This document shows, piece by piece, positions 8,685 through 55,878 of a stretch of 64,000 bases of DNA. The translations under genes and the position numbers were made by a program. How positions within the stretch are numbered: position 1 is the stretch's first letter; every line of letters begins with the position of its first letter. Below the pieces are notes generated by a model. The model was not told the origin of the DNA and ran no database searches. It saw nothing but the letters and a program-made list of their open reading frames with translations. The stretch is from Zygnema cylindricum (Eukaryota; Streptophyta; Zygnematophyceae; Zygnematales; Zygnemataceae), in NCBI GenBank assembly GCA_037447655.1, contig JBBHKE010001101.1:1-64000 (forward strand). The letters are read 5' to 3'.

Positions 8685-9583
8685 ATAGTGCCCAGGTTTC
8701 TTACAAAAATGACATAAACCTTTGGGAGCCCTTGGTCCGAACTCGTCGGTCTGATTTTTCTGCTCCCTCCCCCCATAGTTTCCGACCGGTTTCCGGGAAT
8801 CCTTGTTCCTCCAATCGGTCCAGTTGCCAAGGCTTGTCCACTCTTTCCTCCCCTTCGGATCTCAATCGTATTCTCCCAAACGAGAATCATCCCTACCACT
8901 GAGTTCCATATCCACCTTGAGTCCGGCAAGTCCTGCACACGGTTGACTATGTTCTCGAACTCATCGGGTAACTTCATCAATAAACAGTTAACCTTTTCTT
9001 TTTCACTAAAATCTTTTCCCGCACTCTCTAGCTCCATGAAGAGTGTAGTAAGCTCATTGCAAAAATCCAACATCTTCCCCCCTTTGTATACATACTCCTT
9101 AACTTTTTGATCAGCCAAATGTTGTTGCTGAATCGTACCACTTTGGTACATCTCTATGAGAGCCATCCAAAGATCGGATGCCCTTTCTACCTGCAAATGA
9201 GGACATGCAAGTCCTTGAGTGAGATGGCGTAGGATGAACTGCTTTACCGCCATATTGTTGAAGTCCTAGGTTTCAGTATCATTCTCCTCGTTCCTCGGAA
9301 TAGGTGACATGAATGCCGAACCAGTTGTTATTGGTGTGGTCGCCTCCTTCTCCTTTCCTTTGTCAACCACCTCTTTTTTTTTGTTTCCTCCGTTGAAGGT
9401 GGATCCTCTTTTCTAGTGAATCTGCTTTCTCCAAACCCTGGAGGAATTCCAAGACATGATGGACGCCCCAACCGTCCACTCACTATCCCCCAAAACCTTT
9501 TTTCGCATAGAGCTCCTATAATCATACTTTCCCAATATATGAAGCCAGTTCCATTAAAGATTGGTACCCTAGAGGGTGGGCCC
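8663..9583 (-). pseudogene. Copia A1 gag
   Basis: The capsid region (about 9253-8820) has FILRHLTQGLACPHL, KGGKMLDFCNEL and KLPDEFENIVNRVQD, matching copy A3 almost word for word. One base is missing near 8815 relative to A3, so the frame leaves the zinc-knuckle reading frame. The N-terminal part (9583-9328) is readable from GPPSRVPIFNGTG onward but has no family A start codon because the A 5' LTR is absent. An open frame reads in from the gypsy LTR across the junction without an ATG of its own. Confidence 0.75.
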
Positions 9584-10474
9584 GAAAAAGGCGACCCCTC
9601 TCCGAGAGTATCGTCAAAAGGTATGGTACTCGAGCAACCTTCGGTGTCCGCAGCTCGGAACCCACCTGACTCTTCTCGGTTCCAAACAGCAAAAAGTCTA
9701 AAATCACCCAAAAAGGAAGATAGTGCCAACTACCCGCCCGGAGTGTGATTTCCACAAAAGACAGATCCAAAACCAAGATGGCAATAGAGTCGAAACAACA
9801 CAAAGATTCTCCAAAAGAAGGTTTTTTGGAATTTCTGAGGGTTTTCACAGGAGACAGTACTGAAAAGCAACCTAACTCCTTCGACCCCAAGTGCCTTATA
9901 CATCAAAGTTTGTCATTTTGCAAGTCTGAAAGTCAAAGCTACGCTATTAACCAATGAGCCGCAAGCAAGTGTAATGGAACTGACACAAGACAAATTAATC
10001 CGTACTACACTTGGGTCAAAAATTTCTGCTCTGGACTGCGGCTAGATCCGCGGCCGGAAGTAATTATTTAGTCCCCTATTTTAAGACAAAATCCTGAAAA
10101 TGACACTAACTTGTCAGACTTTGACTTAACGTAATTAAAGGACCAAAAGTCAGCTGAGCCGGAGCTTAATTCCTACTGACGGCTAACAACATAATCTAGA
10201 TGCAAATCCGGAAAGTTACGTGGCAATCTAGAATGTACCCCCCCACAGAGGCTGTTGGAAACTAGTCTAAGGTAACGGAATTGCAATCTTTGAAACGGTA
10301 GAACTTGGTTATTCGGCCTCCGTTAGACGCGAAATAAAGTGCGTTCCGCTCATTTAAGGAAATACAAGGATCTCGTCCGGCTTGTTGCACTCACTCCTCC
10401 GTACTCTGAAGACCGTAGAGCATAAAAAAGACCCGGAAATCCTTGATGATATAAAGTTATGCCTGAAAAGCACA
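9584..10474 (-). repeat. Gypsy copy 1 3' LTR (3' edge cut at the A1 junction)
   Basis: The block matches the + strand sequence at 31083-31990, for example the TGTGCTTTTCAGGCAT start, the GAGCGGAACGCACTTTAT block, the GGGGGGTACATT block and the GGCACTTGGGGTCGAAGG block. The end is lost where A1 internal sequence begins at 9583. The exact start (10474) is inferred from the first shared TG and is uncertain by about ten bases. Confidence 0.65.
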
Positions 10475-10928
10475 TGAGCTTCCCAGCTGTCGAGCGTGCC
10501 TGATTAACGTGAGGGAGGGGCCCACAGCCCGGAGTCTTCAACATTGGGGTCTTGCAAATAAATCCCGAATGCGAATGATTCTCAAAAAGGATGATCATGC
10601 TCACTGCTGCTCACATCCCTCCCATGGATATGCATGCAAAATAGGAGAGAGGCATGAGCAGGGAATAGGGAGGAGGGCAAGGGGGCAAGTGAAAGTTATC
10701 CCCTCCTCCTTCCTCTCCCCCCTGACCGGGGGAAGGGATTAGGGTCTCGACAATCGGGCTGATATCCCCAATTTCCCCCCCTCTTAGTCAACCGTGACTA
10801 AGATATGAAAACGATTACCCACTCCATTCGCAGTTCCCACAGAACCACATGCTAGAGGGTATATGGTGTGGCTCCCAAGAGGGGGGGAGACAGGCTGAAT
10901 GCCAACATTGACCACACTGATTGCAGAC
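10475..10928 (-). other. Gypsy copy 1 3' noncoding region
   Basis: Between the integrase C-terminal tail and the LTR there is no coding signal. On the - strand the region has purine runs (GGGGGGGAAATTGGGG and GGAAGGAGGAGGGGA) that could include the polypurine tract used to prime plus-strand synthesis, but the expected tract directly at the LTR border is not obvious. Confidence 0.4.
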
Positions 10929-12434
10929 CTATAGGTGGTGCAGCTGGGAAGACTGGCTGCAAGCTGAGGAACAGGAGGGAGGATCGACACTGTGAGTTAA
11001 GTGGAAAGTTGGTTCGTCTTCCAATCCCCGAAGATGGCAAGGGGCCACATTGATCTGATTCTCTTTAATTTGTCGACCATCTTTCCCCTCCAATGTAAGA
11101 ACCCCTTTGTTGGACACCTCGACCACTTTCAATATTACACTGCTGGCAGAAATATCCAGCGTGTCCTTCTTCTATTGCATTCGATATACAAAGTCTCCCG
11201 GCATAAATCGTCGCTGCCGAGGCACATAATTCCCACCCCAGCGCTGAGAATACCACAATTAATCTCGGTGTTGAGCCGCCTACAAATTGCCCATGGCGAG
11301 AGGCATCTCTCGGTGGAATACCTTGGCCCTGTCGTCGATCAGTTTTTCGACTGTCCCCTTGTCATCCATCTCCGGTAGGACCACCGCTTGGGCCGATGCA
11401 GCTCCGGGCAAGATGGGATGTCGTTCAAATAGAATAAAATAAGGGCTATAGGAGTGGAGAGAAGCCTGCCTGCTAAATCTGTAACCCATAGCAATCCAAG
11501 GCAATTTTTTGTCCCACTCCCCCAAATCTTCTTCCACGACATATATTCGTAGTGACCGCTTCACTGTCTGTACGCACCTTTCGGCTAAACCGTCGGCTTG
11601 AGGGTGGTCACGGCTGGTTAGCCGATGGTCGACCAAGCATTTTTCCAAGAGGTTAGAAAATTCTCCGGCAAATTTGGAGCCTGAGTCAGTTAGAACTTCC
11701 GCCGGCGCTCCAAATTCGGCCAGCACCCGTTGCAAAATTGCATCGCCAATTACCTTGGACTCCTTCCTGGGCAAAACCACCAACTCGATCCACTTGGAAA
11801 AATGTTCTATCATAACCAGCACAAAGCAGTTCCCCCGCCTGCTGGTCGGAAGGGGTCCCAAAAGATCCAACGACCACCGATAAAACATCCCTCAGATAGG
11901 CAGTGAGTGAAGCTCAGTCCCGCCCTTTTTGTCAAAAGCTGCGTTAATGCGATTGCTTGAGGAGCAAGTTCGCACAATTCGGTTGACTTGGGTCCGCAAC
12001 CCATGCCACCAATAAGAGCCCGTAACTAGGGAAGTGGTCCGCTTTTGCTCGAAGTGTCCACATTGCCAATGGCGATTAGAAATAAGAGTTTCTCGATCAG
12101 AGGGGGGAGGAACCACTTTCCTCGTATCGCCAGACCATTTCCGAAGGAGAATGCCTCTGTCCCAATCATAACAAACCATCGGGGTCTGTACCCGGGATAA
12201 GAGAACTCCAGTCAAGTGGGGAAGAGGGGACCCCTGCTGGATAGATTGGAGAGCATCGGGGTCGTTCCAAATGTCCTTCCGTCCGGCCCCTATTGGCGCC
12301 TGCCCCTCCATATCGGCAGAGAAAGTTGACAGTTCCCCCCCATTTTGGGGAAGCCATATGAAAACGGAGGAGGCTCGAATGATTCCTAAGCTGATCTCAA
12401 GGTCCTCATCATGCCGAGCTCCGGTAGAATCCAT
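10929..12434 (-). pseudogene. Gypsy copy 1 integrase
   Basis: The N-terminal zinc-binding part reads WQCGHFEQKRTTSLV with WWHGLRTQV, followed by a TGA at 11889-11891, probably from a CGA arginine codon. The core then gives RWSLDLLGPLP (first Asp), EVLTDSGSKF (second Asp) and HPQADGLAERCVQTVKR (Glu), the DDE triad that joins the cDNA ends to target DNA. The C-terminal tail ends near VAPCHL, a common plant gypsy ending. The core frame 11888-11280 is open. Confidence 0.85.
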
Positions 12435-13198
12435 GGTGGAGGGATCAGGATTCCGGCTAAGTTCGTTCGCATTCCCATGGATCTCCCTGCCCTATGAACA
12501 ATGTCGAAATCATATTCCTGCAGGATAAGAACCCATCTGAAGAGTTTGCCGGTCAACGTACTATTTTCCATGATCCATTTCAAGGGTTGGTGATCCGAAA
12601 TCAGTGTGAAATGGACTCCGTAAAAATAAGGTCGGAAATGCTGGATGGCCCAAACCGCTGCGAGTAACTCTCTGTGGTAACTGCTATAATTCCCCTCAGC
12701 GCTGTTGTTACTCTGGCTGGCGTAGGCCACCACATATTCAGCTCCGGCATTATCGACTTGAGCCAGAACCGCTCCCAATCCAAACCTGCTCCAATCAGTA
12801 TAATGGAGGAAAGGTCTTTGGTGATCAGTCATTCGAAGCACGGGGTGCTGCTTCAGAGCATCCTTCAAGAACTGGAAGGAGATCTGTTGTTCTTTGGCCC
12901 ACTGCCACTCTTGGTCCTTCCGCAGTAGCTGGTTAAGGGGCTGGGCGTGACTACTGAACTCTGGGATAAACCGCCGATAGTAATTGGCCAAACCCAGAAA
13001 AGTGCGAAGGGCCGAGATGTCCTGTGGTGGGGGAAAAGCGTCAAGAACTGCCACCTTGACCATGTGGGGACCCACAGTCCCGGGTGTCTCCTCATGTCCG
13101 AGGTAAATGATTTTCTGCACCCCAAAAATGCCTTTGCCCGGGTGACATTTCAAGCTCGCTGCTCGGAGTGCCCGAAGAACGATCTGGATATGCTCCAT
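12386..13198 (-). pseudogene. Gypsy copy 1 RNase H
   Basis: After the RT thumb (LGLANYYRRFIPEFSSHAQPLNQLL) comes a Ty3-type RNase H with LHYTDWSRFGLGAVLAQ, YHRELLAAVWAIQHFRPYF and FTLISDHQPLKWI, the first three catalytic acids. The last acid, usually in NADALSR after the HRAGRS motif, is lost in this copy (GMRTNLAGI). It overlaps the RT frame by about 50 bases in another frame, so one indel separates them. Confidence 0.85.
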
Positions 13199-13869
13199 GT
13201 TTCATCAAAAGTCTTTGAGAATATAATAACATCATCAATATAGCACCGGGCACACTCGATTCCTCGGAGTGCTTCGTCCATGGCCTCTTGGAATTTTACT
13301 GGTGCATTCTTAAGCCCGAAGGGCATGTAAATCCATTCATATAGTCTGGAACCCGCCCAAAATGCAGTTCTCTCCCGGTGCTTTGGTTCTATTGCAATCT
13401 GGTGGAAACCATTCTTCATGTCCAGAGTGGAATATATAGTGGCGCCTACAAGAGAGTCGAATATCTCTTGCGGAGTCGGCATCGGATACCGGTCAGAGAT
13501 GGGGGCCGTGTTCTGCATGCGATAGTCTCCACACGTCCGGAAATGTACAGTTTTCCCGGACGAGACTTTTTTGGGAGGGAGGATTGTCCAGGAAGCGAAC
13601 CCATAAAGTCCGGTACTTTCTTGAACCAATCCGGCTTCCACCAAGGTCAGGACTTTAGCCGTGATGAATTTCTTTTCCTTGAAACTGAGAAGATACTGCT
13701 TCTGCCAAACAGTAACCATCTCGTCGATCAAATCAATTCGGAAGGGTGTTCCTTTGTAGATACTGACGTCTGTTTTTGACCATGAGAACACCTGTATGTT
13801 TTCGGCCAACAGCTCCGAGATTCGCGCCTTCTGTTGAGGGTCCAATTGCTCCCCCAGGGTCCTATCCAT
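13150..13869 (-). pseudogene. Gypsy copy 1 reverse transcriptase
   Basis: A 239-residue open frame contains the RT fingers and palm: TCGDYRMQNTAPISDRYPMP, YSTLDMKNGFHQIAI, MPFGLKNAPVKFQ and the catalytic CYIDDVIIFSK. This is the Ty3/gypsy pattern. The part before it (QQKARISELLAENIQVFSW) is the usual pre-RT segment. The domain runs into RNase H in a shifted frame. Confidence 0.9.
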
Positions 13870-14419: not shown

Positions 14420-15308
14420 CTAGTAGAGGGATACCTTAGAGAACGACACGTCACATTTGGAGAGTGCTTTCCTTGGGAATCCCGGTTTGTTGCACCAGAA
14501 GAAAGGTTGGCGGTCGGGTCGAGTCACTGGTCTGGCTATTCTACCTTCCCGAAGTATTTGCTGGACGGAAATTTTCGGGTCAGGGATTTCCTTCTCCAAC
14601 AGTTGTCGGAGAACTTGAATCGGGATCATGTTGGTCCAATATGCCCAGACTTGGTGTGCCAAGGATCCCAGCTGTGCGGCGTCGAAATTTAATGGAGCCC
14701 CTAAAATCCGGGTTACGTGATTCCAGCTGTCCGCAACCTGTTTTCGTTTATCATTTCCTCGGTGGACATTTTCCAGAACGTACCCCACCGGCGTCTCCTG
14801 GAGCTGTTGAAGCCACGAGATTAACTCGATCAACCAAAAAAAAGGTTCCACTTCTGCAGTCTTGGTGCCCTTTTCCTTGTCCTGCTAGGGAGTATCCTTG
14901 ACAAGGCTAGCCTGCCAACACCAAATCCACTCTTCCCAAACTGGCCATGTGGGTCGCCATGATGTTTTCTACATTGTGGGGAAGACTACGGTGAGCTTTG
15001 GAGAAGGCTGATACTGGAAGCTGTTGAGGATATAGGTGATGAAGTTGGTGGAGGCCATGTTCGCTGACCGCCCTAGCCTCGGGAGATACTTCCACGGCTG
15101 TGTATGACTCCACCAAATATCATGTTTTCAAGACCGCTTCCAAATCAGAACTAATTCCTGAAAATAGAGATAAAATACGCAGTCCGGAATCGGGAACTGC
15201 CAATGACACCACTTGTCGATTGAATTCCTTGTTACTGCTCTTGGGTTTGGAAGCATTAGACGGTGAGGTAGCTTCCTTCAACGTCAAGGCTGAAAATGCC
15301 TGATCCAC
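14420..15308 (-). pseudogene. Cytosine-5 DNA methyltransferase domain inside gypsy copy 1
   Basis: Motifs appear in order on the - strand: motif I (GLRILSLFSGIS, about 15180) for S-adenosylmethionine binding, a segment ending VDLVLAG, motif IV PCQGYSLAGQG (about 14890) with the catalytic cysteine, motif VI GYVLENVHRG (about 14780), and motif VIII (FDAAQLGSLAHQVWAYWTN, about 14660), where the usual two arginines read Gln and Trp. The enzyme would transfer methyl groups to cytosine in DNA. A TGA (15117-15119), a TAG beside motif IV and a one-base expansion of a T run near 14840 break the frame. Length and motif VIII wording suggest a compact DNMT3/DRM-like catalytic core, but the subfamily is uncertain. 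A second copy in gypsy 2 shows the domain belongs to the element. Confidence 0.85.
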
Positions 15309-15577
15309 TCCCCACCGGAGTTTTGCTACCTGTAATAATCTATTCTGATATTCCTCTTCCCACCGCCCGGAAATTGGGAATTGCTAGATTTCTTTGGCGA
15401 TATCGGTGGAACTGCCAAACAGTTCCGTCGAAGATTATGTTGTGTACACCAGGTAGCATCTAGACATTGGGACATTTGTCTTTCCCCGGTTCCATAAATC
15501 CAGAGGGACAACCACTTTGGTTCCTTCCTGATTTTTGGGGTCCCGGACGGTACACTGCTCTTTCCACAGGCTCAAAC
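15309..15577 (-). other. Gypsy copy 1 spacer between protease and DNMT
   Basis: This part has short, shifted frames only. On the - strand a GGGGKRN-type basic patch is readable. The corresponding segment is present in gypsy copy 2 at 46390-46600, so it belongs to the element. No domain recognised. Confidence 0.4.
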
Positions 15578-16129
15578 TTATATTGAGTCGGGTCCAAGTG
15601 GCCATTCCCAACAAGATTTCGAATTGAGTCCCTCCACAACCAAGAAGGGGAGCTCAATTTTCACCCGTTGGCCTCCGTCATTCGAAAACTCGATATCCAT
15701 GGCCTTGATTATCCCATGGACTGGTTGACTGCCGCTACTTACGGTGCTTAAGCAGATGTTGCTTGGGCATATTTCGGGCCGGAGTTCCTCGGGCATCTTC
15801 TGCAAAGCAAAGGTGGTAATGAGGTTGGGGAGAGCTCGAGTGTCAACCACAACGTCGTGGTATCCCCCGTATCCGTTGAGCGTGACGTTCCCGGTTCTGT
15901 TCAGTATGAGAGCCACGGATAAGGCTTTGTAGTCCCTATCCACTATAGGGGTTTTAGGATCGTTGAACAAAAATAATGCGGTTGGCGGAGTGGTCTTGTC
16001 TACCCCCCCCTTTCTAGAGTGGATCTCCTCACCCAATGATTGAATGAGGATTTCTTCAGGCAAGTTGTGGGACGAGGCTAGAGTCTTCACGTGTGTGAGA
16101 GCATAGGGCATGAGGTGCCGGACTAGCAT
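15578..16129 (-). pseudogene. Gypsy copy 1 protease-like domain
   Basis: The open frame of 183 residues has a retropepsin-like core: YGGYHDVVVDTRALPNLIT, then hydrophobic FSNDGGQRVKIELPFLVVEG. In aspartic proteases the motif is D-T/S-G; here the third residue is Arg (codon CGA). In gypsy copy 2 the same codon is TGA and the Asp is Asn. Context (between Gag and DNMT/RT) supports a protease that would cut the polyprotein. The preceding MPYALTHV segment is probably the end of Gag. Confidence 0.7.
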
Positions 16130-17580
16130 GACAGCCGGCTTGGAGGAGGGAAGTGTTGCTTTTGGTGAAGATGGAGATGAGTTCGGCTCCTGCTGATCCT
16201 GATCTTGTCCTACTTGCTCACTCTCTGAGCCAAAATCTAGAACTGGAGGTGTTTGGGGAGCATCATTCTACGGGCGTTCGGCCATATATTTATGAAACCA
16301 GTCCTGATTCTCTTTTTTCTCTTGTTCCAGTTCCTCCTTCTCTCGCTGCTCTTTCTCGTTCTTGTAATTTTCGAAACCGGGAGGCAATTTAGGTTTGGGA
16401 GGAAGAGATGGCTGGTGAGTGGGCTTAATTCCTAAGCCGATGTCGCTATTCAATATTACGGCTTGGGGAGTAAATGACAAAGGCCCCGTAGCTTTCCGGT
16501 TGTGATCCCTCTGACCCATTTTTTGTCAGTCCTGTCTATGCATCGAGGTGGAGTTGCGAAGTTGGCGACGACTGTCTCCTACCCCAACATTCCAAGCTCC
16601 GGCCGGGAAGCTACGGGCATCGTGGGCATTAGGGGGTTCTAAATCCCAACCCAATAAGTCGTTATCATTGGCACCCTTTGTGCTTTGAAGCTCAAGCTCC
16701 GCAAGCTTCTGTAGCAACTCCTGTCTTTGCCTTTGGAGTCGTTGGGTGGCTGTAAGAGGTGCAGGTCCTGAAGAAGATCACAAGCGGAGGGCAGCTAACT
16801 CTGCAGCCATCGTGGCCAACTGCTGACTTTCTTGCTGTATAATGATCTCCGGCGTAAACTTTGCCGGAGCAGCCGGAAATCGCTCAAGTATTTCCGGTGT
16901 TGGCATAAGTTAGCGCCCCCACGGGTAAAGGAGTTGGAGGGGTAGAGGATTAACGGCGGTTTCCCATTCCCCAGTAAATAAAGCAAACTGCATCATTTCT
17001 TTTGGTATTCCATTTTTCCAGAAACATTGCCCTTCCTTATGGCCCAGAAATCCACAAGCTTCGCACTAGGCGCCCTTGGTAGTATATTTACTCCGGATTT
17101 CGTTGGAGATTTGGGCATCATCATACTTGGGAAGTTTGATCTGCCGCAACTGAGATTGGGACATCTTAGAGGTTTCGCTCCGTGGAGTTGGACAGTAAGT
17201 TTCTTTGGTTACCGGTGTGTTGTCCTCTCCCCTCCCCCCCTTGAGCCTTTCTTGCTGTTTCAAGGTTCTTTTTGCACGTTCTTTCTCCCATTCTTTAAGT
17301 TTCAAAGCCAGCTCCGGTTTAAGTTTTCTGGTGCAATGCTTCCACCCATGACCCGGTTGCTGATAATTCAGGCAATTATAGAGAAATACCTGCTCATCTG
17401 CTCCCATAGCTAGCTCTGACCCGCTGTGAGCTACTTGCTTCCCTTTAAGCTTTCGAAGAGCTTAAAGTTCAGCCTGTTCCTCCTTATTCAAAGAGGTCTC
17501 CCCGACGAATCCTGCCAAATTTGCTCGGGCCTTGCCAGTCACGACCTTCTCCCTTGCATCACTATGGACGAAGTGGTCAT
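16130..17580 (-). pseudogene. Gypsy copy 1 gag C-terminal half with two zinc knuckles
   Basis: On the - strand the first knuckle is degraded (CLNYQQPGHGWKHC, second Cys now Tyr; near 17372), while the second is canonical CCHC (CEACGFLGHKEGQC, near 17040-17080). Between them is a Lys/Glu-rich helix (LKLKEWEKERAKRTLKQQ). Downstream follow a coiled-coil-like LQRQRQELLQKLAELELQ stretch and a Glu/Lys-rich segment before PGFENY. Several stops interrupt the frame. Zinc knuckles bind genomic RNA during packaging. The frame is cut at 17580 by a rearrangement. Confidence 0.75.
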
Positions 17581-17599
17581 CTAGATACCCAAAATATAT
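17581..17599 (-). other. Junction filler from copia B RT
   Basis: The - strand sequence ATATATTTTGGGTATC is the 'YILGI' stretch of the copia B RT. It is joined on one side to gypsy gag (GACCACTTCGTCC) and on the other to a different part of B RT. It marks a rearrangement breakpoint. Confidence 0.6.
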
Positions 17600-17645: not shown

Positions 17646-18752
17646 TTAAACATCCTTTTGCCCCCCGCATTCTATAATATCTAACATGTTTCTAATAGCC
17701 TCTTTTTGAGTCAATTTTATTACTTTCTTATTTCTGTCTCTCTCTACTTGGATACCCAAAATATATTTTGCCTCACCGAGGTCTTTCATCTCGAACGGTG
17801 AGTTTAGAGCAGTTTTGATTTTGTTAATTTCAGCCATTGATTTGCTAATTAATAGCAAATCATCTACATATACTGCTATAAACACTATCCCATTTTCACC
17901 TTTTAGAACGTAGACAGAGTGATCAGAACTTATCCTTTGAAATCCTAGACTAGTCAGGAATTCATCAAGCTTTATATTCCACTGTCTGGGGGCCTGTTTT
18001 AGGCCGTACAAAGATTTTAACAACTTGCATACTAAGTGCTCTTTTCCTGGTTCCACATACTTTTCAAGCTGCAAAATGTAAATGGTCTCTTTTAGTTCTC
18101 CATGTAAAAAGGCCGTTTTTACATCCATCTGATAAATTTCCATATCTTTTATAGCAGCTAGGGACAGCAAGATCCTAACTGTTGGAAATCTTACAACCGG
18201 AGAAAATGTTTCTTCAAAATCCATTCCTTCCTTTTGATTGTACCCTTTCGCCACAAGTGTGGCCTTATAGCGTTCAATGGTGTTATCGGGACTTAACTTC
18301 ACCTTGAATACCCATTTGCTGCCGATCGCTTTTCGGTTCGGAGGAAGGTCCACAAGCTCCCATGTTTGAGCCTCCATGATCAACTTCATTTCGTCGTTTG
18401 CCGCCTCAATCCAGTGATTCCGCTCTGGTGATGAGAAGGCCTCTTGGATGGTCAAGGGCTCCCCTGAGCTGCCGAGTAGGCAATGTGAGAGCTTGCTTGC
18501 AGGTGGCTGCTTGATCTTCTTCCCCCCGGAAATTCTAGGGCTGAGATCGTCGGATGCCGCGCATTGCGCTGATTGCGCTGATTGCGCTGGTTGCGATCCG
18601 TGTCTTGCTGATTGCGCTGGTTGCGATCCGTGTGTTCCTGATTGCGCTGTTGGTCCGTCTGGACCCGAAGTTGGTGAGGAACTTGGAGAGAGTCTGACTC
18701 CGGAGTCATTACCGGAGTTTGTGGAATCTGCGGGACAATTTCCTGCATGCAA
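17646..18752 (-). pseudogene. Copia B1 reverse transcriptase (truncated)
   Basis: A 368-residue open frame begins in the repetitive integrase/RT linker and carries SKWVFKVKLSPDNTIERYKA, FEETFSPVVRFPTVR, YQMDVKTAFLHGELKE, LYGLKQAPRQWN and the catalytic AVYVDDLLLISK. It ends shortly after KLTQKEAIRNML. The linker DNA (18560-18650) is made of short tandem repeats rich in Asn, Gln and Arg codons, and the integrase and RT frames overlap there in different phases, so an indel in the repeat separates them. Confidence 0.85.
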
Positions 18753-27474: not shown

Positions 27475-27877
27475 GTGTCATTGGTAGTCCCCGATTCCGG
27501 ACTGCGTATTTTATCTCTATTTTTGGGAATTAGTTTCGATTTGGAAGGATTTGAAAACATGATATCTGGTGGAGTCATACGCGGCCGTGGAAATATCACC
27601 CGAGACGCGGGCTGTCAGCGAACACCGCCTCCACCAACTTCATCACCTATATCGTCAACAACTTCCAGTGAAAGCCATTTCCACAGCTCACCGAAGTCTT
27701 CTCCAAAATGTAGACAACATCCTGGCGCCTCATCTAGCCAGTTTGGGAAAAGTCGATTTGGTGTTGGCAGGCTGGACTTGTCAGGGATACTCCTTAGCGG
27801 GACAAGGAAATGGGCATCAAGATCGCATAAGTGGAACATTTCACCGGATGATCAAATTATTCATTAGTGTTTGTTGA
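27475..27877 (+). pseudogene. Gypsy copy 2 DNMT fragment (motifs I to IV)
   Basis: One + strand frame gives motif I (SGLRILSLFLGIS) and another, after a one-base shift, gives SYAAVEISPETRAVSEH, VDLVLAGWTCQGYSLAGQG and NGHQDRISG. The catalytic cysteine and following Gln-Gly are kept; the residue before the cysteine is Thr, while gypsy copy 1 has Pro. Sequence matches copy 1 closely up to about 27856 and is lost at 27877. It is the continuation of the gypsy copy 2 sequence that stops at 46251 on the other strand. Confidence 0.8.
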
Positions 27878-30395: not shown

Positions 30396-31082
30396 GGTAT
30401 ATTTTCCGTATAATTTCGTACCTTTCTGTGTATTCTCTATAATTTTTAGGTTTTTTGGGTGTTTAAGTGGACTTTTTCCGTATGGATCTGTACATTTATT
30501 CTACGTTTTAGGATTTTACGATTTTTTCACGTTTTAAAAGGTACACTTCCGTATACTTTATGACATTTCTATATTTTAAAACCATAGTTGTTCAAAACGC
30601 ATTTTACACATGAGACAAACGCGTGAATAATACGTGGAAATCGGAGAGGTCGATTTGAAAAATTGTTAATGAGTTTATGTCCGTACAATTCCGTATATGT
30701 AGAAAATTTTGAATTCAACATGTTCTACAGTTTGTGCGTTTTCCGTTAAATTAGCGATAACAAATTTTAATAATTTAAATAATTATCACACTCCATGTGT
30801 ATATCACAACATCTACATCAACTGGTTACAAACAACGCTCTCCAATGATATTGTGACTATCTGTCGAGCCAGGTTTACCTTTGGAGCATGATTAAATTTT
30901 GTAGCAAACCTAGTCTCTCCAGGTTTCAAAAGCTGAAGTTGTGATATATTATTGAGCATGGATACACTCATGCTATGATTAGTGATGAATTTCAAAAAAA
31001 AAAAATTACTCTATGACAGGTTTAGAGATAAATGTCAACCCACTCCAATCTTCCAACATGAAGTCTAATATTGTCAAGCTCA
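30396..31082. other. AT-rich intergenic DNA between the hAT element and the gypsy LTR
   Basis: No gene recognised. It includes a poly-A run near 30995 and ends where sequence shared with the gypsy 3' LTR at 10474 begins. Confidence 0.45.
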
Positions 31083-31995
31083 TGTGCTTTTCAGGCATGC
31101 CTTTATATCACCAAGGATTTTCGGGCCCCTTTTTCCCTGTACGGTCCTCAGAGTACGGATGAATGAGTGCACCAAGCCGAACGAGATCCTTGTATTTCCT
31201 AAATTGAGCGGAACGCACTTTATTTGGCGCCAAACGGAGGCCGGATGACAAAGTTCTACCGTCTCAAAAATTGCAATTCCGTTACAGGGAGCCATTTGCC
31301 ACCAGCCCCCGTGGGGGGTACATTGTGGATGGCCACCTAACTTTTCGGATTTGCATTTAGATTATGCTGGTAACCGTCAGTAGAAATTTAGTTCAGTCTC
31401 AGCTGACTTTTCGTCCATTTATTACGTTAGGTCTAAGTCTGGAAAGTTAGTGTCATTTTATGGATTTTGTCTTATAATTGTGGACCGAATAAATACTTCT
31501 GGCCACAGATCTAGCCGCAGTCCGGAGCAAAACTTTTTGTCCCGAGAGTCCGGAGCAGAACTTTTTGTCCCGAGTGTAGTACAGATTAATTTGTCTTGTG
31601 TGAGTTCAATTACACTTGCTTGCCGCTCATTGGTTAATAGCGTAGCTTTGACTTTTGGACTCGTAATTTGACAAACTTTGATGTATAAGGCACTTGGGGT
31701 CGAAGGAGACATGTTGTTTTTCAGTACTGTCTCTTGTGAAAACCCTCAGAAATTCCAACAAACCTTCTTTTGGAGAATCTTTGTGTTGTTTCGACTCTAT
31801 TGCCATCTTGGTTTTGGATCTGTCTTTTGTGGAAATCAAAGTCCGGGCGGGTAGTTGGCACTATCTTCCTTTTTGGGTGTTTTTGGACTTTTTGCTTTTT
31901 GGAACCGAGAAGAGTCTGGTCGGTTCCGAGCTGCGGACACTGAAGGTTGCTGGATTACCATACCATTTGACGATACTCTCGGGAGAGGGGTCGCC
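31083..31995 (+). repeat. Gypsy 5' LTR
   Basis: Matches the reverse complement of 9584-10474 along its length. It contains a tandem duplication of a 28-bp unit (GTCCGGAGCARAACTTTTTG, 31521-31575) that is single in the other copy. The 3' border is uncertain because the other LTR is cut there; I place it near 31995, after CGCCTTTTTCTCA. No conventional TGG-type primer-binding site is evident next to it. Confidence 0.6.
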
Positions 31996-32469
31996 TTTTT
32001 CTCATTTTCATCGTTGATTGCTGGGGTATGTTGAGCTCGTTTCGCTACATTTCACATTTTATACCTTTTATTCTCTTTTCTGGGGTAAGGTGATATTGTT
32101 AAATCTGGAAAGCCAATCATATTTATCTATATATATATATATATCTACGTGGTAGTGCATTTGTGTCTTCATCTGGAGTTCTGTTTGCTTTGGAGTTACT
32201 TTTTTGGAGTAAGCTGAAAACCCCCTGAATCAGGACAGTGGGTTTTGAGGGAACAAATGCGTTAGACTTCCTGTCGACAAAGCACAGTACTGAAAAGCCT
32301 ACCTGTCTTCTCGGATTAGAGGGGATAGGAGCTTTCACTTTGGAAGCCCTCTTTTTGGAAGCGATCTTTAGTTCTATCCACCACCCTTTTCCCCTACACC
32401 TCTATCATCATAGGGGGAAGAGAGACTCTGGATAACGGATCCGAAGGGCAAGGCTGACCGGAGAGGCCC
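31996..32469 (+). other. Gypsy leader between LTR and gag
   Basis: Untranslated leader with a TA microsatellite near 32131-32143. A purine-rich GGGGGAAGAGAGA stretch precedes the gag ATG at 32470. No domain or RNA structure recognised. Confidence 0.4.
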
Positions 32470-35242
32470 ATGCCGGAAGGGAAATCTTTGAGGTCTGAGG
32501 AGTCGGAGCCCATGGAGACTGCTTTTGGATCGCCAGCCACGGAACCTTCTGGTGGTTCTCCTCCTCCTCCACCTCCCAGTCTGACTCCCGAACATTACCC
32601 TTCTTTGGCAGAAGCCGCCAGGGTCCATGCAAAGGAGAGGAATAGAGAGTTTCCGAGGGCTCGGCCAAAGAGGCAAGCGCAGAGGGAGCCCAATGTGGGC
32701 CCCTTTCCTGAGGTCGGGCTACATACCCGATCCAAGATTCCCCGGGCCGAGATCCTGATTGACCTCGCTGTTTTGACGGACACACGTCGACCAGGGCGTA
32801 AGGAACTCCTTGCCCTTCACGACCTCCATGAGCTCAAGGTGAAAAATGAGTTGGTACCGAGAGTGGCGCGAACAGATCGAGTCAGAGTGGTTAGACTCGT
32901 CGGAGGGGTGGTGGAGATTTTGAGCAGTTATTCGGAGAGCAGCTCTTCACAGTCAGTGCCAGACCGGTCCCAGAGGGCTCCCTATTCTCACCCTCCCCCA
33001 TCTTCCTCTCAGGACACCGCAGCCAGCCGACCCACTCGAGAAGGTACCTATTTTCGGCTTCGTAGGGGAGAAGGGGGTATCAAGAGGGATGCACCAGATC
33101 CAGTGAGGGGAAAGAGATTTGACCACCGTGACAGCAAGGGGAGATTTGCACCTTTCCCCATGGAGGAGAAGTCCCCGACTCCCATTCCACCTTCCACCGA
33201 GAGATCTGCTCCCAACACAACTCGTGTCCGCCCTGCCGAAGGGCTCTAGAGATCCAGACCTATCGATCCTGAGGTTCCGGGTACAGGACCAGAAGATTTG
33301 TCCGAAAGATGGTGGCGCACCAGACCTAATGATCCCGAATTTCCGCGCACCGAGATAGCGGATCTTACCAAAGTAGTGGAAAAAGCCAAGAAACTAGTGG
33401 AGGTTCTGAAATCCCAAGGACAGGCTACGGCGGGGGCCGGACCCGTCACGGTAGATTGGGAGGCTTTAGAGGAAGAGAGGCGAAAGGCATGGGAACATGA
33501 ATTGACGCTCATTAGGGAAGTTCGGTGTAGGACAAGTGGGATTCTTAGCGGGAAGACTCTTCCTACCTTAATGATAGGGCCGCATTTAGAAGCTCTCGCA
33601 GCGGGGACTTCTCCTCTCGCCAGTACTCAGCCTTAAATGCCTTCTTTGGAGCCAAGCCAAGAGCCTCCCCTTCCGCGGAAAGTGGAGGAAAACACAAGAC
33701 CTAATGTGGAGGGTTTGGGTGCAGATCTACCTTCTGGAAACACTTCGGCTCATCGGGAAAAGACCACCTTTGTCACGCTGGAGGTGTCTACTACTGTGGA
33801 GGCTTTAGTGGAGTTACGACCTGACGAGAGGATTCACATCCCCTTGAGGGCTCCGACACCCCCTCTCACCTCTCCCAAAAAATCCCCGGAGCCCCCATCT
33901 TCTGCTCCTCCACCTTATTCCTCTCACTCCTCGGAACACGCCACAGGACTCCGGACTGTCCAGATCCCTCTCCTTCGCCATCCGTTTCTCCCGCTGCAGC
34001 TGTCCGTGGGTCGCCTAGTCCGCCTGTGTTGCCCTACAAATATGACGTACCTGCCTATTCACCTCCTCACCGACGCTCTCTTTCCTCCAGCTCCGAAACT
34101 TCCCCTCTTGAGACCTCTAGGAGGCGAACCAGGAGACAGACACCTTTCCCCGCAAGGGCTCCGCTGTCTCCTTCTAAATCCCCTTCTCTGTCTCCGCCAC
34201 CAGCCATTCCTCAAAGGCCTGGGAACAAGCCGCGCCTCCACATACCATCGGTGGCAACCGTCCTCCAGGATCCACAATATTCTGCTGGATATAGAGGAGT
34301 AGTGGGGAACATCCCACCTCCAACCATCTTTTCCGGCGCTGGTACTTCCTCATTGGGAAGGGAGCCACACCACAGGGGGCTGCACCTTCTAGCAGGGAGG
34401 ACCCGGTTCCATCTTTGAGGAAGAGGATACGAGAGTCATCTCACCCGCTCAGTTTGTCAGTTCCACCGGGCCTTCCTCTTCCCATTTCACCAACTCTGCA
34501 GAGGAGGAAAAGGAAATGGGGGATATTCGGATCTTTATCGGAGATAGCTCGGGGATTGCATTCTCAGATTTCGAGTTGTTGTGGAAATCTTTCACACAAT
34601 CTGAGATAAACAAGTACCGGGGGGGAGCCATTCCGGATGACTTCGAAACCACCCTCTTCTCATGATGGTCAACTACCTGTCTGGAGGGGCGTTGTCAAAC
34701 TACAAGGAGTGTCAACCTCTTTTAATGGCTCCTAGCATTAAAATCTCGGATACAGCCCTTGATGTCGCTGTTTTGCAAACGGAGGCTGGCTTGGCCGCGG
34801 CTGCGGCGACCCCTCTGACTGCTACCTTTACACAGGGCATGAAACTACAGGCGCAAGGAAGTGCCTATGTTAACTAGCTGCAGGGGATCCAGGAAGCCCA
34901 AGCAGCAACTCGCCTGGTTGGCAACCCAAACCCTTGTACCACCCTGCTGAATATCTGGAGACTCCTCTACACAGAGAGGAACGAGTTCGTGATCAAGGAA
35001 TTCACGGAATTCCGATGTTTGAAGAACGAGACTCCCCAGACTCTTTTTAACCGACTCTCCATTCTTTGTCAAAAGAAAAAGCTGTCCACGATTGATCTTT
35101 CGGCCATGGCCACAAAATATTTCATCGCCGTCCGTAATTCCTTCGGGCCGACAGGGCAGACTGCACTGGACAATTAGATTGCCGGAAAGGCAATTCAGGA
35201 CATTAATCCCTCCGCGAAGGACATTTCTCTGGTGGCCATAAA
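32470..35242 (+). pseudogene. Gypsy gag N-terminal and capsid region
   Basis: The frame opens at ATG 32470 and stays in one phase to about 34000 apart from TAG at 33247-33249 and TAA at 33634-33636, giving a long Pro/Ser/Arg-rich region with no recognised domain. After a frameshift near 34000 more Pro/Ser-rich sequence follows, then the capsid-like part with NYLSGGALSNYKECQ, TERNEFVIKEF and NETPQTLFNRLSILCQ. Total length before the zinc knuckles would exceed 850 residues, long for a gypsy Gag. It is cut after LVAIK at 35242; gypsy copy 1 resumes at the next codons at 17580 on the other strand. Confidence 0.7.
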
Positions 35243-35380
35243 AATAAGAAAATAATAAAATTGACTCAAAAAAAGGCTATTGGAAACATGTTAGATGAGT
35301 ACGCAATGCGGGGGGCAAAAGGATGTTTAACTCCAATGGAGTTTCGGCAGAAGTTAGAGGGAGAAGAGACAGAACCAGGT
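35243..35380 (+). pseudogene. Copia B reverse transcriptase fragment
   Basis: About 138 bp encode KLTQKKAIGNMLDEYAMRG and TPMEFRQK in the B wording. It joins gypsy gag on the left and the A3 LTR on the right. The same stretch of RT forms the 3' end of B1 at 17600-17760 in the opposite orientation, so the two are inverted repeats at a rearrangement. Confidence 0.75.
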
Positions 35381-46250: not shown

Positions 46251-47234
46251 AACACCACTTGTCGATTGAACTCTTCGTTACCGGACTTGGCTTTGGAAGC
46301 ATTAGACACTGGTGTAGAAATGACATCCTTCAATGTTAAGGCTGAAAATACCTTATCCACTCCTCGCCGGAGTTTTGCTACCTGCAAAAATCTATCTTTA
46401 TATTCCTAATCCCACAGCTTGGAAATTGGAAATTGCTAGATTTCTTTGGCGATATCGGTGGAACTGCCAAACAATTCCGTTGGAGATGATGTAATGTACA
46501 CCAGGTAGCAACCAGACATTGGGACATTTGTCTTCCCCCGGTTCCACAAATCCAAAGGAACCACCACTTGGATTCTTTACGGATTTTTGAGGTCCCGAGC
46601 GGTACATTGTTCCTTCCACAAGCTCAAGCTCATATTGAGCCGGGTCAAAGTGGCCATTCCCAACAGAATTTCGAATTGAGTCCCTTTCACCACCAAGAAA
46701 GGAAGCTCAATTTTCACCTGTTGGCCTCCATCATCAGAAAACTCGATTTCCATGGCCTTGATTATTTCATGGATTGGTTGACTGCTGATGCTTACGCTGC
46801 TTAAGCAGATGCCGCTGTTAACGGCGCTTAAGCAGATATTGCTTGGGCGAATTTCGGGTCGGAGTTCATCGGGCATTTTTTGCAAAGCGGAGGTGGTAAT
46901 GAGGTTGGGGAGAGCTCAGGTGTTGACCACAACATCCTGGTATCCCCCGTACCCGTTAAGCTTAAAGTTCCCGATAAGGTTCAGTATAAGAGCCACTGAT
47001 AAGCCTTTGTAGTCCGTATCCACTATAGGGGTTTTATGATCTGTGGATAAAAATACTGCGGTTGGCGAAGTGGTCTTGTCCACCCCCCTTTTTCCTAAGT
47101 GGATCTCCTCTCCTAATACCTGAATGAGGATTTCTTCCGGCAAGTTATGAGAAAATGCTAGAGTCATCACGTGTGTGAGGGCATAGGGCATGAGGTGCCG
47201 GACTAGCATGACAATCGGTTTGGAGGATGGAAGT
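46251..47234 (-). pseudogene. Gypsy copy 2 protease-like region
   Basis: Sequence matches gypsy copy 1 from 15210 to 16145. The protease core reads GYQDVVVNT then TGA then ALPNLITT, so the catalytic Asp is Asn and the next variable residue is a stop. The end of Gag (MPYALTHVMTL) lies upstream. It is bounded by the A2 insertion at 46250 and the B3 insertion at 47235. Confidence 0.8.
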
Positions 47235-47983
47235 TGTTGTTCTACAACTACCGGTGCAGGTGGAGGAGCAGTAGTAGTAGTAGAAGTAGACACGATACAC
47301 TCACATAAGCTATCAAGAATCCTACCAAACAGTTGTTCTTAAGTGCTCACCAATTCTTATACAAGCATCCAAACCTCACAAAACTCTATTTGAATATAAA
47401 GTAGCAGAAACACTGACAACTCCTAAAGTTTCAGGACAATTGACCCGACAACACTCAAGATATAATATTCAGAAGTTTCCCAAAAACTGTCTGCAATTTT
47501 ACTACTTGGAAGTCTGGATACATAATATGTTTTGAGTCCTAAGTCTTATACTTGTGTTGATTTGGCAACACCAGTGTACTTAAGAGGTTTGTCAAACCAC
47601 CAAGCTACCACTAATCTGTCAAGCTACCACTAAGCAATCACTAAGCTACCACTAAGCTATCACTAAGCTACCACTAGGCTATCACTAAACTACCACTGAG
47701 TTACCCACTAAGTTACCCACTAAGTTACTACTGAGTTACCCACTAAGTGGACTAGAATCGTATCTATCCCAGTTGCTCTATCCTGTACAGAATCACATTG
47801 GAATATCAGATGCATCGTTGTTCGTACAGACCATATCAAATATAATCGTGGTTGCGTTGTCCTGTCTGTGTTGCAGCTTTGCTGCTGCGCTGCTCTGTCT
47901 GTATAGCCGCTGCGGTGCTTTGTCTATATAGCAACTACGCTTTTTTGCTGCTCTGAGACTGAAAGCTTTCCAAAAAGACAACA
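47235..47983 (-). repeat. Copia B3 3' LTR
   Basis: 749 bp, beginning TGTTGTCTTTTTGG and ending GTTGTAGAACAACA on the - strand. The gag start ATG seen in other B LTRs is GTG here (47291-47293). The reading frame continues across the LTR end into gypsy sequence. The 3' LTR has fewer AGCAGC repeats than B1. Confidence 0.85.
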
Positions 47984-52984: not shown

Positions 52985-55878
52985 AAAGTGTTGCTTTCGG
53001 TGAAGATCAAGATGAGTTTGGTTTCGCAGATCCTAATCTTGTCTTTCTTTCTCACTTTCGGAGTCGGAATGTGGGATTGGAGGTGTTTAGGGAGTGTCAT
53101 TTTCTGGGCGTTCTGCCATATATCTCTCAAACCAGTCATGATTGTCGTTTTTCTCTCGTTCCATTGACTCCTTCTCTCGCTCCTGTTTCTCGTTTTGGTA
53201 ATTTTCGAAACCGGGAGGCGATTTAGGTTTAGGAGGAAGAGATCGGGGTTGATTAGGTTTGATTCCTAGGCCGATGTCCTTGTTCAACATTACTGACCGA
53301 GGAGTAAATGACAAAGGCCCTGTAGCTTTCCGGTTGTGATCCCACAGACCCATTTTCTGCTTGTCTTGTCTTTGCATCGAGGTGGAACTGCGGAGTTGGT
53401 GGCGGCTGTCTCCCACCCCAACAATTTAAGCTCCGGATATGAAGGTTCGGGCATGGTGAGCATTTGGGGGTTCCAAATCCCAGCCCAATAAGTCGTCATC
53501 GTTGGCATCCGCGGTGCCTTGAAGCTCAAGCTCCGCGAGCTTTTGCAACAACTCACGTTTTTGCTTTTGGAGTCGTTGTGTTGCTATGAGAGGAGCAAGC
53601 CGGGATGAAGATCCCAGGTGGAAGGCAGCCAACTCTGCAGCCATTGCTCTCAATTGTTGACTTTGTTGATGTATGATGATCTCCGGCGTAAGCTTGGCCA
53701 GAGCAGCCGGGGCTCGTTCAGATCTCTCTGGCGTGGACATAAGTTAGCGCCCCTAAGGGTAAAGTAGTTGGAGGGGGAGAGGGTCTCTGCCGTGGACATA
53801 AGTTGGCGCCCCCAAGGGTTAAGAAGTTGGAGGGGGAGAGGGTTAACGAATGTTTCTCATTCTTCTGTAAACAAAGCAAATTGCATCATTTTCTTGGGTA
53901 CTCCATTTTTCCGGGAACATTGTCCTTCCTTAAGCCCCAGAAATCCACAAGCTTCGCACTTGGCGCCCTCAGTGGTATATTTACTCCGGATTTCGTTGGA
54001 GATTTTAGCTTCATCAAACTTTAGAAGTTTGATTTGCCGCAACGGAGATTGGCACATCTTAGAGGTTTCGCTCCGTGGAGTTGGACAGTAAGTTTCCTTG
54101 ATTATCAGGGTCTTGTCCTCTCCCCTCCCTCCCTTTAGCTTTTCCTGGTGTTTCAACGTCCTATCTCCATGTTCTTTCTCCTATTCCTTAAGTTTCAAAG
54201 CCAGCTCCAGTTTACGTTTCTAGGTGCATTGCTTCCACCCATGACGAGGTTGTTGACAATTTATTTAATTATAGAGAAATACTCGCTCATCTGCTCTCAT
54301 AGCTGGTTCTGACCCGCTGTCAGCCACTTCCTTCCCTTTAAGCTTTCGCAAAACTTGAATTTCAGCCTATTCCTCTTCATTCAAAGAGGTTTCCCCGGCA
54401 AATCCTGCAAAATTTGCTCGGGCTTTGCCGGTCACGGCCTTCTCCCTTGCCTCACTGTGGACGAAGTGGTCATATAATTTCATCGCCGCAAGTGGGACTT
54501 TTTTGGCGAAGGGATTGATGTCATGAATTGCCTGTCTGGCAATCTAGTTATCTAGAGCAGTCTACCCTGTTGATCCGAATGAATTACAGACAACGATAAA
54601 GTATTTAGTTGCCATTGCCGGAAGGTTAATATTGGACGGTTTCATTTTCTGACAAAGGCTTGAGAGTCGGTTGAAGAAAGTCTGCGGAGTCTCGTTCTTC
54701 AAGCATCGAAACCCTTTGAATTCCTTGATTGCTAACTCGTTCCTCTCTGTGTAGAGGAGTTTCCAGATGAGTGGTACAAGGGTTGGGATTAGCAACCATG
54801 CGAGTTGCTGCTTGGGCTGCTTGAATGGCTTCCAGCTGGTTAACATAGGCACTTCCTTGTGGCTGCAGTTTCATGTCCTGTGTGAAGGTAGTGGTTACAA
54901 GGGTTGCAGCCACTGCCGCCAAGTGAGCCTCCGTTTGCAGGACTGTCCCATCAAGGACCGGATCCAAGATTTAGATGCTAAGAGCCATCAAAAGAGGTTG
55001 ACGCTCCTTGTAATCTGCCAACGCCCCTCCAGAAAGGTTGTTGACCATCATGGGGAAGAGGGTTGTCTCGAACTCATCCGGAATGGCTCCTCCCCGGTAC
55101 TTATTGATTTCGGCTTGTGTGAAATATTTCCACAACAACTCGAAATCCGAAAATGCGATCCTCGAGCTATCTCCTGTAAAGATCCGGATATCCCCCGTTT
55201 CCTTTTCTTCCTTTGCAAGGTTGTGAAATGGGAAGAGAAAGGCCCGGTCGCGCTGACAAACTGAGCAGGCGAGATGACTCCCGTATCCTCTTCCTCGGGA
55301 CCGGAACCGTGTCTTCCTCCGGAAGAAGGTGTTGCCTTAAGAGGTGTGGATCCCCCTTCCATAGAGGAAGTACCAGCGCTTGAAAATATGGTGTGAGGAA
55401 CGATGTTCCACACTACTCCTCTATATCAAGAAGAGTATTGTTCCTCCCTGAAAGCCTACTCCATCGATGGGATGTGGAGGCAAGGTCGATTCAAAAGAGG
55501 TCCTTGGGAAATGGGTGGCGACGGAGATGGAGACGAAGATTGCTGGAGCCCGGTTTGATAAGGCGTCTATTTCCGTGTTCGCCTCCTGGAGGTCTCGGGA
55601 GGTGGAGTTCTGAAATTTGTGAAAGGGGAACGCCTGTGAAGAGGTGTGTAAGCGCGGACGTCATGTTTGTAAGGTAAAATAGGCGGCTCTGGAGACCCCC
55701 AGACTGTTATAGAAGGAGAAACAGATGGTGAAGGGCAATCCACGGGGGTGTAGTAGGACCCGTGGAGTGAGAGGAAGGAGGAGGAGGAGAAGATGGGAGA
55801 TCTAGAGATGCTCTAAGAGGTGGTGAAGGGAGTGTTGACGGTCTTAAGGGGATGTGTATCCTCTCGTCCGGTCGTAAC
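52985..55878 (-). pseudogene. Gypsy copy 2 gag
   Basis: Reading down the - strand: LRPDERIHIPL, a Pro/Ser-rich part, the capsid-like region NETPQTFFNRLSSLCQ (about 54690), then LYDHFVHSEAREKAVTGKARANFAGF, zinc knuckles (NCQQPRHGWKQC, first Cys lost; CEACGFLGLKEGQC, His now Leu) and the LAELELQ helix region. This copy is continuous across the point where gypsy copy 1 is split, and so shows the native sequence there. It is cut at 55878 by the copia D insertion and at 52985 by B3. Confidence 0.75.

Follow-up and report, generated by a model that had tools for sequence, protein, structure and literature searches.

A multi-copy Ty3/gypsy retrotransposon lineage of Zygnema cylindricum with a predicted DNMT3-type methyltransferase and a PHD finger in its Pol polyprotein

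Results

A DNA methyltransferase domain within a decayed gypsy element

We analyzed a 64,000-nucleotide stretch of the genome of the alga Zygnema cylindricum (contig JBBHKE010001101.1, positions 1 to 64,000), which we call the window and which consists of a nest of copia and gypsy retrotransposons. The subject of this report is a gypsy element on its minus strand, copy 1, which extends from about 17583 to 9584 and whose reading frames are decayed. Its modules follow the order gag C-terminal part, protease-like region, linker, DNA methyltransferase (DNMT), reverse transcriptase (RT), RNase H, integrase and PHD finger (Table 1). The DNMT, on the minus strand from 15221 to 14423, contains LRILSLFSGIS, AVEVSP, PCQGYSLAG, RSGTFF and GYVLENV, then a remnant of motif VIII and GRIA; we take the first three to be motifs I, II and IV and GYVLENV to be motif VI, which places motifs I, IV, VI and VIII in canonical order. 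Decay of this domain is evident from its spread over two frames, with a break at a run of eight T near 14840, from two in-frame stops (TGA at 15122 and TAG at 14909, the latter directly before PCQGYS), and from a motif VIII that has lost its R-x-R (AHQVWAYW, versus AHRVRAYW in copies with open frames). Motifs IX and X could not be recovered in copy 1.

When the domain was translated through its stops, with X at each stop, the resulting protein matched Pfam PF00145 (E 2.2e-9) and, in the PDB, DNMT3A (E 5.8e-7). It also matched TIGR00675 at E 6.7e-12, yet with 45.7 bits against a cut-off of 100.65. These matches bear out the original prediction, made from the sequence of the window, that a DNMT core with motifs I, IV, VI and VIII in order lies between a protease-like domain and RT. 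A chance resemblance of motifs as the source of the signal is ruled out by these E-values together with the selection and the genomic copies described below.

Table 1. Features of the gypsy elements in the window
Feature	Position	Strand	Basis
Gag C-terminal part of copy 1, with zinc-knuckle-like motif, reaching the protease-like region	16151..17583	-	sequence comparison, frames
Protease-like region of copy 1, motif DTRA / LLGMATW	15600..15860	-	position and motif only
Proposed readthrough stop of copy 1, UAG then CAATTC, in frame with DNMT	15384..15386	-	conserved across copies
Putative DNMT3-type C5 cytosine methyltransferase of copy 1, decayed; motifs I to VIII and start of target-recognition part	14423..15221	-	motifs, Pfam, PDB
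Reverse transcriptase of copy 1, Ty3/gypsy type	13073..13749	-	Pfam and similarity
RNase H of copy 1	12455..13012	-	Pfam and similarity
Integrase of copy 1	11262..12170	-	rve E 1e-10
PHD finger of copy 1, downstream of integrase	10818..10985	-	Pfam PHD E 5.2e-5, 23.6 bits versus cut-off 24
LTR-like end of copy 1 (LTR, long terminal repeat)	9584..10481	-	86% identity to 31076-32001
LTR-like end and gag-like 5' part	31076..35246	+	window self-comparison
N-terminal half of copy 2 DNMT (motifs I to IV)	27475..27841	+	86% identical to 15209-14841
Protease-like region and linker of copy 2, up to DNMT start	46252..47239	-	83% identical to 15206-16158
Same UAG in copy 2, then CAATTT	46436..46438	-	same place as copy 1
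Gag part of copy 2	52986..54476	-	window self-comparison

The DNMT accompanies the RT throughout the genome

We searched the host assembly (352,776,454 bases in 2,689 contigs) for further copies. Only the best candidates of each search were scored, so the counts of places are lower bounds; pairs of places with identical scores, such as two pairs near the top of the family-B DNMT list, may represent haplotype duplicates, and independent insertions may be fewer. A search with PF00145 gave 782 first-look candidates, and all 123 that were scored, which possibly include host DNMT genes, exceeded the cut-off. From these 123 matches, 20 loci of 10 kb were picked, with open-frame length and score as the main criteria; 12 belong to one family (family A) and 8 to a second (family B), and the copies in the window are of family B. 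With the DNMT of an open family-B copy as the query, 1,881 candidates were found and all 120 scored places matched at E 1.5e-143 or better with 64-100% identity, giving a list of 121 rows (the 120 places and one extra piece of a place already listed). The RT of the same copy gave 3,178 candidates, and all 150 that were scored matched at E 1.2e-125 or better. Apart from possible haplotype duplicates, the genome thus holds 150 or more RT copies of the family.

DNMT sequence, whole or partial, lies upstream of RT in all 50 of the best RT copies (of at least 150). For 34 of these, a listed DNMT match on the same strand falls within 1.5 kb upstream; the list used comprised 76 places, namely 71 of the 121 family-B rows and 5 of the 123 PF00145 matches. 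In the other 16, reading of the 2 kb upstream revealed DNMT sequence in every case, some copies keeping merely its 3' part. Family copies that generally lack the domain, which would have counted against the original prediction, are not what these 50 show. The claim that a Ty3/gypsy family carries its own DNMT is therefore one about which we have virtually no doubt. At one RT match (L041, on contig C961), a 5743-aa open frame was noted beside N letters (1125 of 2000); the frame is probably an artefact of those letters.

Open copies define two families of Pol polyprotein

DNMT and then RT occur on one strand in 18 of the 20 loci, and the remaining two (L016 and L018) contain DNMT only within the 10-kb stretch. 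A protease match was found upstream of the DNMT in all 12 family-A loci, the protease query being taken from family A and none from family B. The family-A locus L001 encodes a single 2395-aa frame that holds every part from gag to PHD finger, whereas the family-B locus L005 encodes an uninterrupted 1520-aa frame running DNMT-RT-RNase H-integrase-PHD; another family-B locus, L004, has an open frame of 1525 aa. Among open copies, Pfam was run on the L001 and L005 frames. The first matched PF00145 (44.4 bits), RVT_1, RNase H, H2C2, rve and PHD (38.1 bits), while its zinc knuckle and aspartyl protease matches fell short of the cut-offs, and the second matched PF00145 (48.9 bits), RVT_1, RNase H, H2C2 and rve, with PHD at 17.5 bits, below the cut-off of 24. 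A DNMT profile search of the kind that the original prediction had called for thus yields significant matches in the window and in open copies alike, and in the open copies the DNMT is in one uninterrupted frame with RT. In L005, L001 and the window, RT, RNase H and integrase follow one another within one Pol, which is the arrangement of Ty3/gypsy elements. A PHD match follows the integrase in 14 of the 20 loci and in the window, and the Pfam PHD match of the L001 frame has the same place as that of the window; a chromodomain gave no hit in the two open frames scanned, L005 and L001.

Six of the 20 loci, all of family A, contain direct terminal repeats, which were cut by the ends of the 10-kb stretches. 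Their identity is 100% in L001 (519 bp) and L008 (361 bp), 99.8% in L006 (465 bp), and 91-95% in L003, L007 and L015. The near identity in the first three marks recent insertions, so family A has moved recently. The sole sign of an LTR in family B is the 86% match within the window between 9584-10481 and 31076-32001.

We also compared nonsynonymous with synonymous substitution rates (Ka/Ks). Between the two window copies, Ka/Ks in the coding frame is 0.29 and 0.28 for gag, 0.24 for the protease-like region, 0.32 for the linker and 0.27 for the DNMT (0.30 with an alignment a few codons longer), values that come from two copies only; in the non-coding frames it ranges from 0.61 to 1.47 over the segments, with 0.64 and 1.37 for the DNMT. 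Every coding segment of this pair, the DNMT included, thus bears the pattern of purifying selection, and the similar values suggest that the DNMT was once as much a working part of the element as gag and protease. Among open family-B copies, median Ka/Ks is 0.25 for DNMT (6 pairs from 4 copies), 0.09 for RT (3 pairs), 0.12 for integrase (1 pair) and 0.36 for PHD (6 pairs), and the family-A DNMT gives 0.17 (2 of 10 pairs usable). Taken together, the sequences describe a multi-copy Ty3/gypsy lineage of at least two families. In its Pol, a predicted DNMT3-type methyltransferase separates protease from RT, and integrase is followed by a PHD finger. One locus, L018, has a DNMT about 60% identical to that of family B; it keeps UAG-CAATTC and has no RT match within its stretch, and it may represent a remoter subfamily or have been truncated.

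The domain resembles DNMT3

In PDB searches, the DNMT of L005 matched DNMT3A at E 1.2e-14, HhaI at 3.5e-5 and plant DRM (best chain) at 9.6e-4, and among the 56 matches listed up to E 10 no chain was named DNMT1 or CMT. The motif order is unpermuted in open copies (I-IV-VI-VIII-IX-X in L005, L004, L013 and L017). With motif I N-terminal and motif X C-terminal, the absence of permutation rules out the DRM class, and the gap between the DRM and DNMT3A E-values agrees with this. A structure model built from ten rows had a predicted local distance difference test score (pLDDT) of 65.5 and a predicted template modelling score (pTM) of 0.70, and the 50 best PDB matches listed by Foldseek were all DNMT3 entries. 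A first model, from the metagenomic piece described below and 5 rows, reached pLDDT 43, and its structure search was without a match at E 0.001 or better. By sequence and by modeled fold, the domain appears to be of DNMT3 type, with DNMT1/CMT, DNMT2 and bacterial enzymes more distant. The catalytic domains of animal DNMT3A and DNMT3B have the same motif order and fold and are the best sequence match, although identity is about 20%, their motif IV reads GGSPC where the elements have AGW[P/E]C, and they lack an insertion that the elements carry between motifs II and III.

All five family-B rows retain PCQ, ENV and R-x-R, and the four that are not cut also retain motif IX and G-x-S-M; the rows that reach this far read ERE-x-AMGF and GQSMD. 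In place of GQSMD, family A and the metagenomic relative have GRVMD or GRCMD. Catalytic activity is probable in family B, and in family A we would put it just below an even chance.

A UAG codon precedes the DNMT in family B

The linker between protease and DNMT of family B contains a UAG codon about 56 codons upstream of the DNMT. This TAG splits what is otherwise a continuous frame of L005 into 3577-4413 and 4417-8976. Nine copies found by similarity all have TAG at the site, followed by CAATTC in 7, and so do 20 further copies that span 67-96% DNMT identity (CAATTC in 19, and TAG in the DNMT frame in 19). Within the 16 stretches read upstream of RT, the site falls in 9, each with TAG-CAATTC; in the other 7 it was unmatched (21-26 of 47 bases), most of these being cut within the DNMT. 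One locus missed by the first similarity search, L011, has TAG-CAATTG. Over all readable sites, the stop is TAG in 39 of 39, never UAA or UGA, and CAATTC follows in 35 of 39, while neighboring codons vary. L001 of family A has no such stop. The tobamovirus-type readthrough context (UAG-CAA-UUA) begins with the same UAG-CAA-UU.

Because the UAG is fixed together with a near-fixed hexamer and, in L005, the frame is the same on both sides, the UAG of family B is very probably a programmed readthrough stop, with the DNMT first in the readthrough part. Six sequences were compared for a stem-loop downstream of the UAG; their consensus structure was weak and showed little covariation, and we do not propose one. 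We had at first considered a TAA at 16912 as the gag/pol boundary and dropped it, since L004 has a sense codon there. Likewise set aside was an early reading in which the two stops shared by the window copies marked a dead source element: the TAG at 15386 is present in every copy where it is readable and is thus a feature of the family, and the TGA at 15122 is a real break, shared within the window subfamily.

A metagenomic relative shares the DNMT and the PHD finger

Among 5.8 billion proteins, with lengths limited to 0.55 to 1.75 times that of the padded query, one protein matched at E 0.001 or better. This protein, P0121 (standing for 9 sequences), matched at E 1.1e-32 with 38% identity over 87% of the DNMT. 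A first search with the DNMT alone, over a limited length range that excluded full polyproteins, gave no match. P0121 is a 1528-aa frame from a Joint Genome Institute (JGI) metagenome contig, and it is a gypsy polyprotein whose frame begins at RT. Its order is RT-RNase H-DNMT-integrase-PHD, which places the DNMT between RNase H and integrase and again a PHD finger after the integrase. Identities among family A, family B and P0121 are 39-43% for DNMT, 42-50% for RT and 47-53% for integrase. All three share the AGW[P/E]C (or GGW) form of motif IV and the insertion between motifs II and III that is absent from DNMT3A, and on this ground we read them as descending from a single old DNMT capture, the domain having later moved; independent captures of related DNMTs may offer an alternative. 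No relative was found in scans of viral contigs with the DNMT, the DNMT alignment, P0121 or the RT-RNase H region, or in a scan of genome contigs.

Copy 2 and the surroundings of the gypsy elements

A second gypsy copy in the window had been predicted to carry the same domain at the same place. The junction is indeed the same and the identity 86%, and the part present is confined to the first half (27475-27841), as the copy 2 DNMT stops after motif IV. This half is situated 18 kb from its linker piece and inverted relative to it, and the two pieces abut with an overlap of 4 bp in copy-1 coordinates. One inversion, spanning about 28.7 kb from near 17590 to near 46251 and bounded by copia insertions, would explain how both gypsy copies were split, because reversing it puts both in a single orientation; this proposal comes from the coordinates, with no sequence rebuilt. 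The gypsy-like segment at 31076-35246 is perhaps the 5' part of copy 1 displaced by the inversion, or else a third copy; between 33812-35218 and 55879-54503 identity is 76%, below the 81-86% between copies 1 and 2. The protease-like region of copy 1 gave no Pfam hit, and Rfam and tRNA scans of the window gave nothing.

Elsewhere in the window, an AT-rich island at 27880-31050, between elements, has 29% GC and an observed/expected CpG ratio (CpG o/e) of 1.39, and tandem repeats of 125 and 132 bp lie inside it at 29281-29726. Copia elements with long open frames occupy 18455-20422, 6738-8861 and 36404-38518. The first has at least 120 relatives, those listed being no more than 31-43% identical to it, so databases seem to cover the copia families of the host poorly. 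Arrays of an 11/22-bp unit (TACCACT-like) occur at 21410-21500, 44962-45053, 47621-47748 and 52626-52740, at sites that resemble copia ends, and GCTGCT-like arrays lie close to them at 44726-44824 and 52866-52923.

Discussion

What the element might gain from a DNMT

The explanation that we favor, with a probability of roughly 0.55, is that readthrough doses a DNMT which marks the element's own cDNA or its insertion site, with the PHD finger as a tether. Most ribosomes on a family-B message would halt at the UAG and yield the Gag-protease part, and a minority would pass it and make DNMT-RT-RNase H-integrase-PHD. The DNMT so made would be packaged at the stoichiometry of Pol. Inside the particle, or within the pre-integration complex, it would place de novo CpG methylation on the element's double-stranded cDNA or on the DNA around a new insertion, and the PHD finger would hold integrase to a histone state. 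That methylation of cDNA or insertion site is the function for which the domain was selected is a tentative proposal, which we hold at somewhat less than even odds. A more speculative extension is that writer (DNMT) and reader (PHD) form a kit in one Pol, the writer being released only by a leaky UAG; the element would thereby set the methylation of its new copies, hence at least 150 copies in a 353-Mb genome, and the same kit in a distant metagenomic lineage would suggest an ancient association.

Several observations weigh against this explanation. Two family-B frames have a CpG o/e of 0.62-0.63, within the 0.59-0.70 of three copia stretches of the window that carry no DNMT, and five family-A frames, at 0.88-0.95, are less depleted. 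From L005 to the window copy, C-to-T changes affect 32 of 179 CpG sites (18%) and 138 of 867 other C (16%). Since o/e is like that of copia and C-to-T is barely commoner at CpG, there is no CpG footprint of heavy self-methylation; the CpG statistics speak against heavy CpG methylation followed by decay, or else the effect is not specific to DNMT carriers. They lend no support to the idea, raised with the original prediction, that a self-methylating element could hide its cDNA or new copies in host silencing. In motif IV, the Pro that precedes the catalytic cysteine is Glu in all four family-A rows (L001, L003, L008, L010) and in P0121. In open family-B copies the Ka/Ks of the DNMT exceeds that of RT (0.25 versus 0.09), and 96 of the 121 family-B DNMT rows contain at least one stop, which leaves 25 free of stops. 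No terminal repeats were seen in the eight family-B 10-kb stretches. Both window copies share a TGA within the DNMT (15120-15122 and 27560-27562) where L004 and L005 have a Gly codon, and because of this shared stop it seems that the window subfamily spread with a broken DNMT, unless the codon mutated twice. Finally, a gypsy-borne Dnmt3 domain from Klebsormidium nitens produced no methylation in yeast, a result that its authors call inconclusive in the article text (de Mendoza et al. 2018, PMC5890265).

Other explanations compete with this one. The DNMT could act on the host, methylating target chromatin or other copies so that the family stays quiet while the PHD finger picks the site. The presence of that finger on the same polyprotein and the coexistence of at least 150 RT copies agree with such a role, and the discussion of PMC5890265 gives reduced transposition as one option; the missing CpG footprint counts against host methylation also, and we regard it as unlikely, though the strongest of the alternatives. 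The absence of a footprint would be expected if the domain were non-catalytic or directed at RNA, serving in nucleic-acid binding or in methylation of the tRNA primer or genomic RNA. This would apply most readily to family A with its Glu-Cys motif, which P0121 shares; family B, however, keeps the catalytic set, and DNMT2 is a much poorer match than DNMT3 in both sequence and fold, so we consider such a role rather unlikely.

Retention of the DNMT as passive cargo, merely by its position inside an essential polyprotein, is already disfavored, and we rate it lowest among the possibilities weighed here. Broken DNMTs are common, as the stops in most listed rows attest, and several of the 16 RT copies read upstream retain the 3' part only, yet Ka/Ks of 0.25-0.27 is like that of gag and protease in the window pair, and the DNMT has survived the split among A, B and P0121 at an identity not far below that of RT. 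Scarcely more probable is that family B makes its DNMT-Pol by reinitiation or from a separate message, with the UAG as an ordinary gene end. The upstream gag frames of L004 and L005 are broken at different places, which would fit either route, whereas an ordinary gene end does not account for a stop that is UAG at every readable copy, with a near-fixed hexamer amid varying neighbors, or for the identical frame before and after it in L005.

DNA methylation is the classic weapon against transposons, and an LTR family that keeps a de novo methyltransferase reverses the question. If the UAG is indeed read through, this would be the means by which the element keeps the enzyme dose low. The question left in 2018, of what benefit a DNMT brings to the retrotransposon that carries it, is now directly testable, as one genome offers Pro-Cys and Glu-Cys variants, recent family-A insertions, and many broken copies as controls.

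Comparison with known systems

Two parts of this architecture have parallels outside DNMT-bearing elements. Retroelements such as murine leukemia virus (MLV) and SIRE1 read through an in-frame stop between structural and polymerase parts. Chromoviruses are gypsy elements with a chromodomain, a chromatin-binding module, C-terminal to integrase. The lineage described here resembles chromoviruses in having a chromatin module after integrase; it differs in that the module is a PHD finger, with no chromodomain in L005 or L001. It likewise resembles the readthrough elements in its in-frame stop, although here the part after the stop starts with a DNMT and the hexamer CAAUUC follows in 35 of 39 copies. 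Readthrough of a stop between gag(-pro) and pol is also reported for Tca2 (PMC2194720), and PHD fingers are described in Ginger1 DNA transposases, whose integrase resembles that of gypsy (PMC2836005).

Retroelement-borne DNMTs have been described before. The text of de Mendoza et al. (2018, PMC5890265) reports DIRS and LINE elements with DNMTs in Symbiodinium (SymbioDIRS-Dnmt3 and SymbioLINE-Dnmt), which reach very high copy number, as the elements do here. SymbioDIRS occurs in two forms with different domain order, much as the window family compares with P0121; however, these are DIRS (tyrosine recombinase) and LINE elements, whereas ours are LTR elements with a DDE integrase. In later article texts, DNMT3s embedded in retrotransposons are named as LTR Copia and DIRS, citing PMC5890265 (PMC12344493), and DNMT-bearing Ty3/gypsy elements are mentioned on the authority of PMC5890265 (PMC6338049). 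Our literature search, outside whose coverage lay most subscription journals, supplements and figures, found no report of a gypsy element with DNMT and PHD finger or of a stop before a DNMT.

The closest known element is KnitGypsy-Dnmt3 of the charophyte Klebsormidium nitens, an LTR/gypsy element with a Dnmt3 in Pol (PMC5890265). By the description in that article's text, both systems combine an LTR/gypsy element with an unrearranged Dnmt3-type DNMT in the Pol open reading frame, without introns and under purifying selection; Ka/Ks of the K. nitens DNMT is below 0.2, compared with 0.25 in family B (6 pairs) and 0.17 in family A (2 pairs). The repeats may differ, as the legend of Fig. 4 describes them as DIRS-like for KnitGypsy-Dnmt3 and 6 of 20 loci here have direct terminal repeats. 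Other differences lie in copy number, K. nitens copies being fewer than those of Symbiodinium according to PMC5890265 and family B having 120 scored places; in the PHD finger, a term absent from the main text of PMC5890265; and in the UAG before the family-B DNMT, together with a one-frame family with a Glu-Cys motif IV. The original prediction left undecided whether the family was a reported one or a new capture: it is of a reported kind, agreeing with the K. nitens family in described architecture, and may be a different family. Against the literature searched, what is new is the expanded form, in which integrase is followed by a PHD finger and the DNMT of family B is preceded by a UAG.
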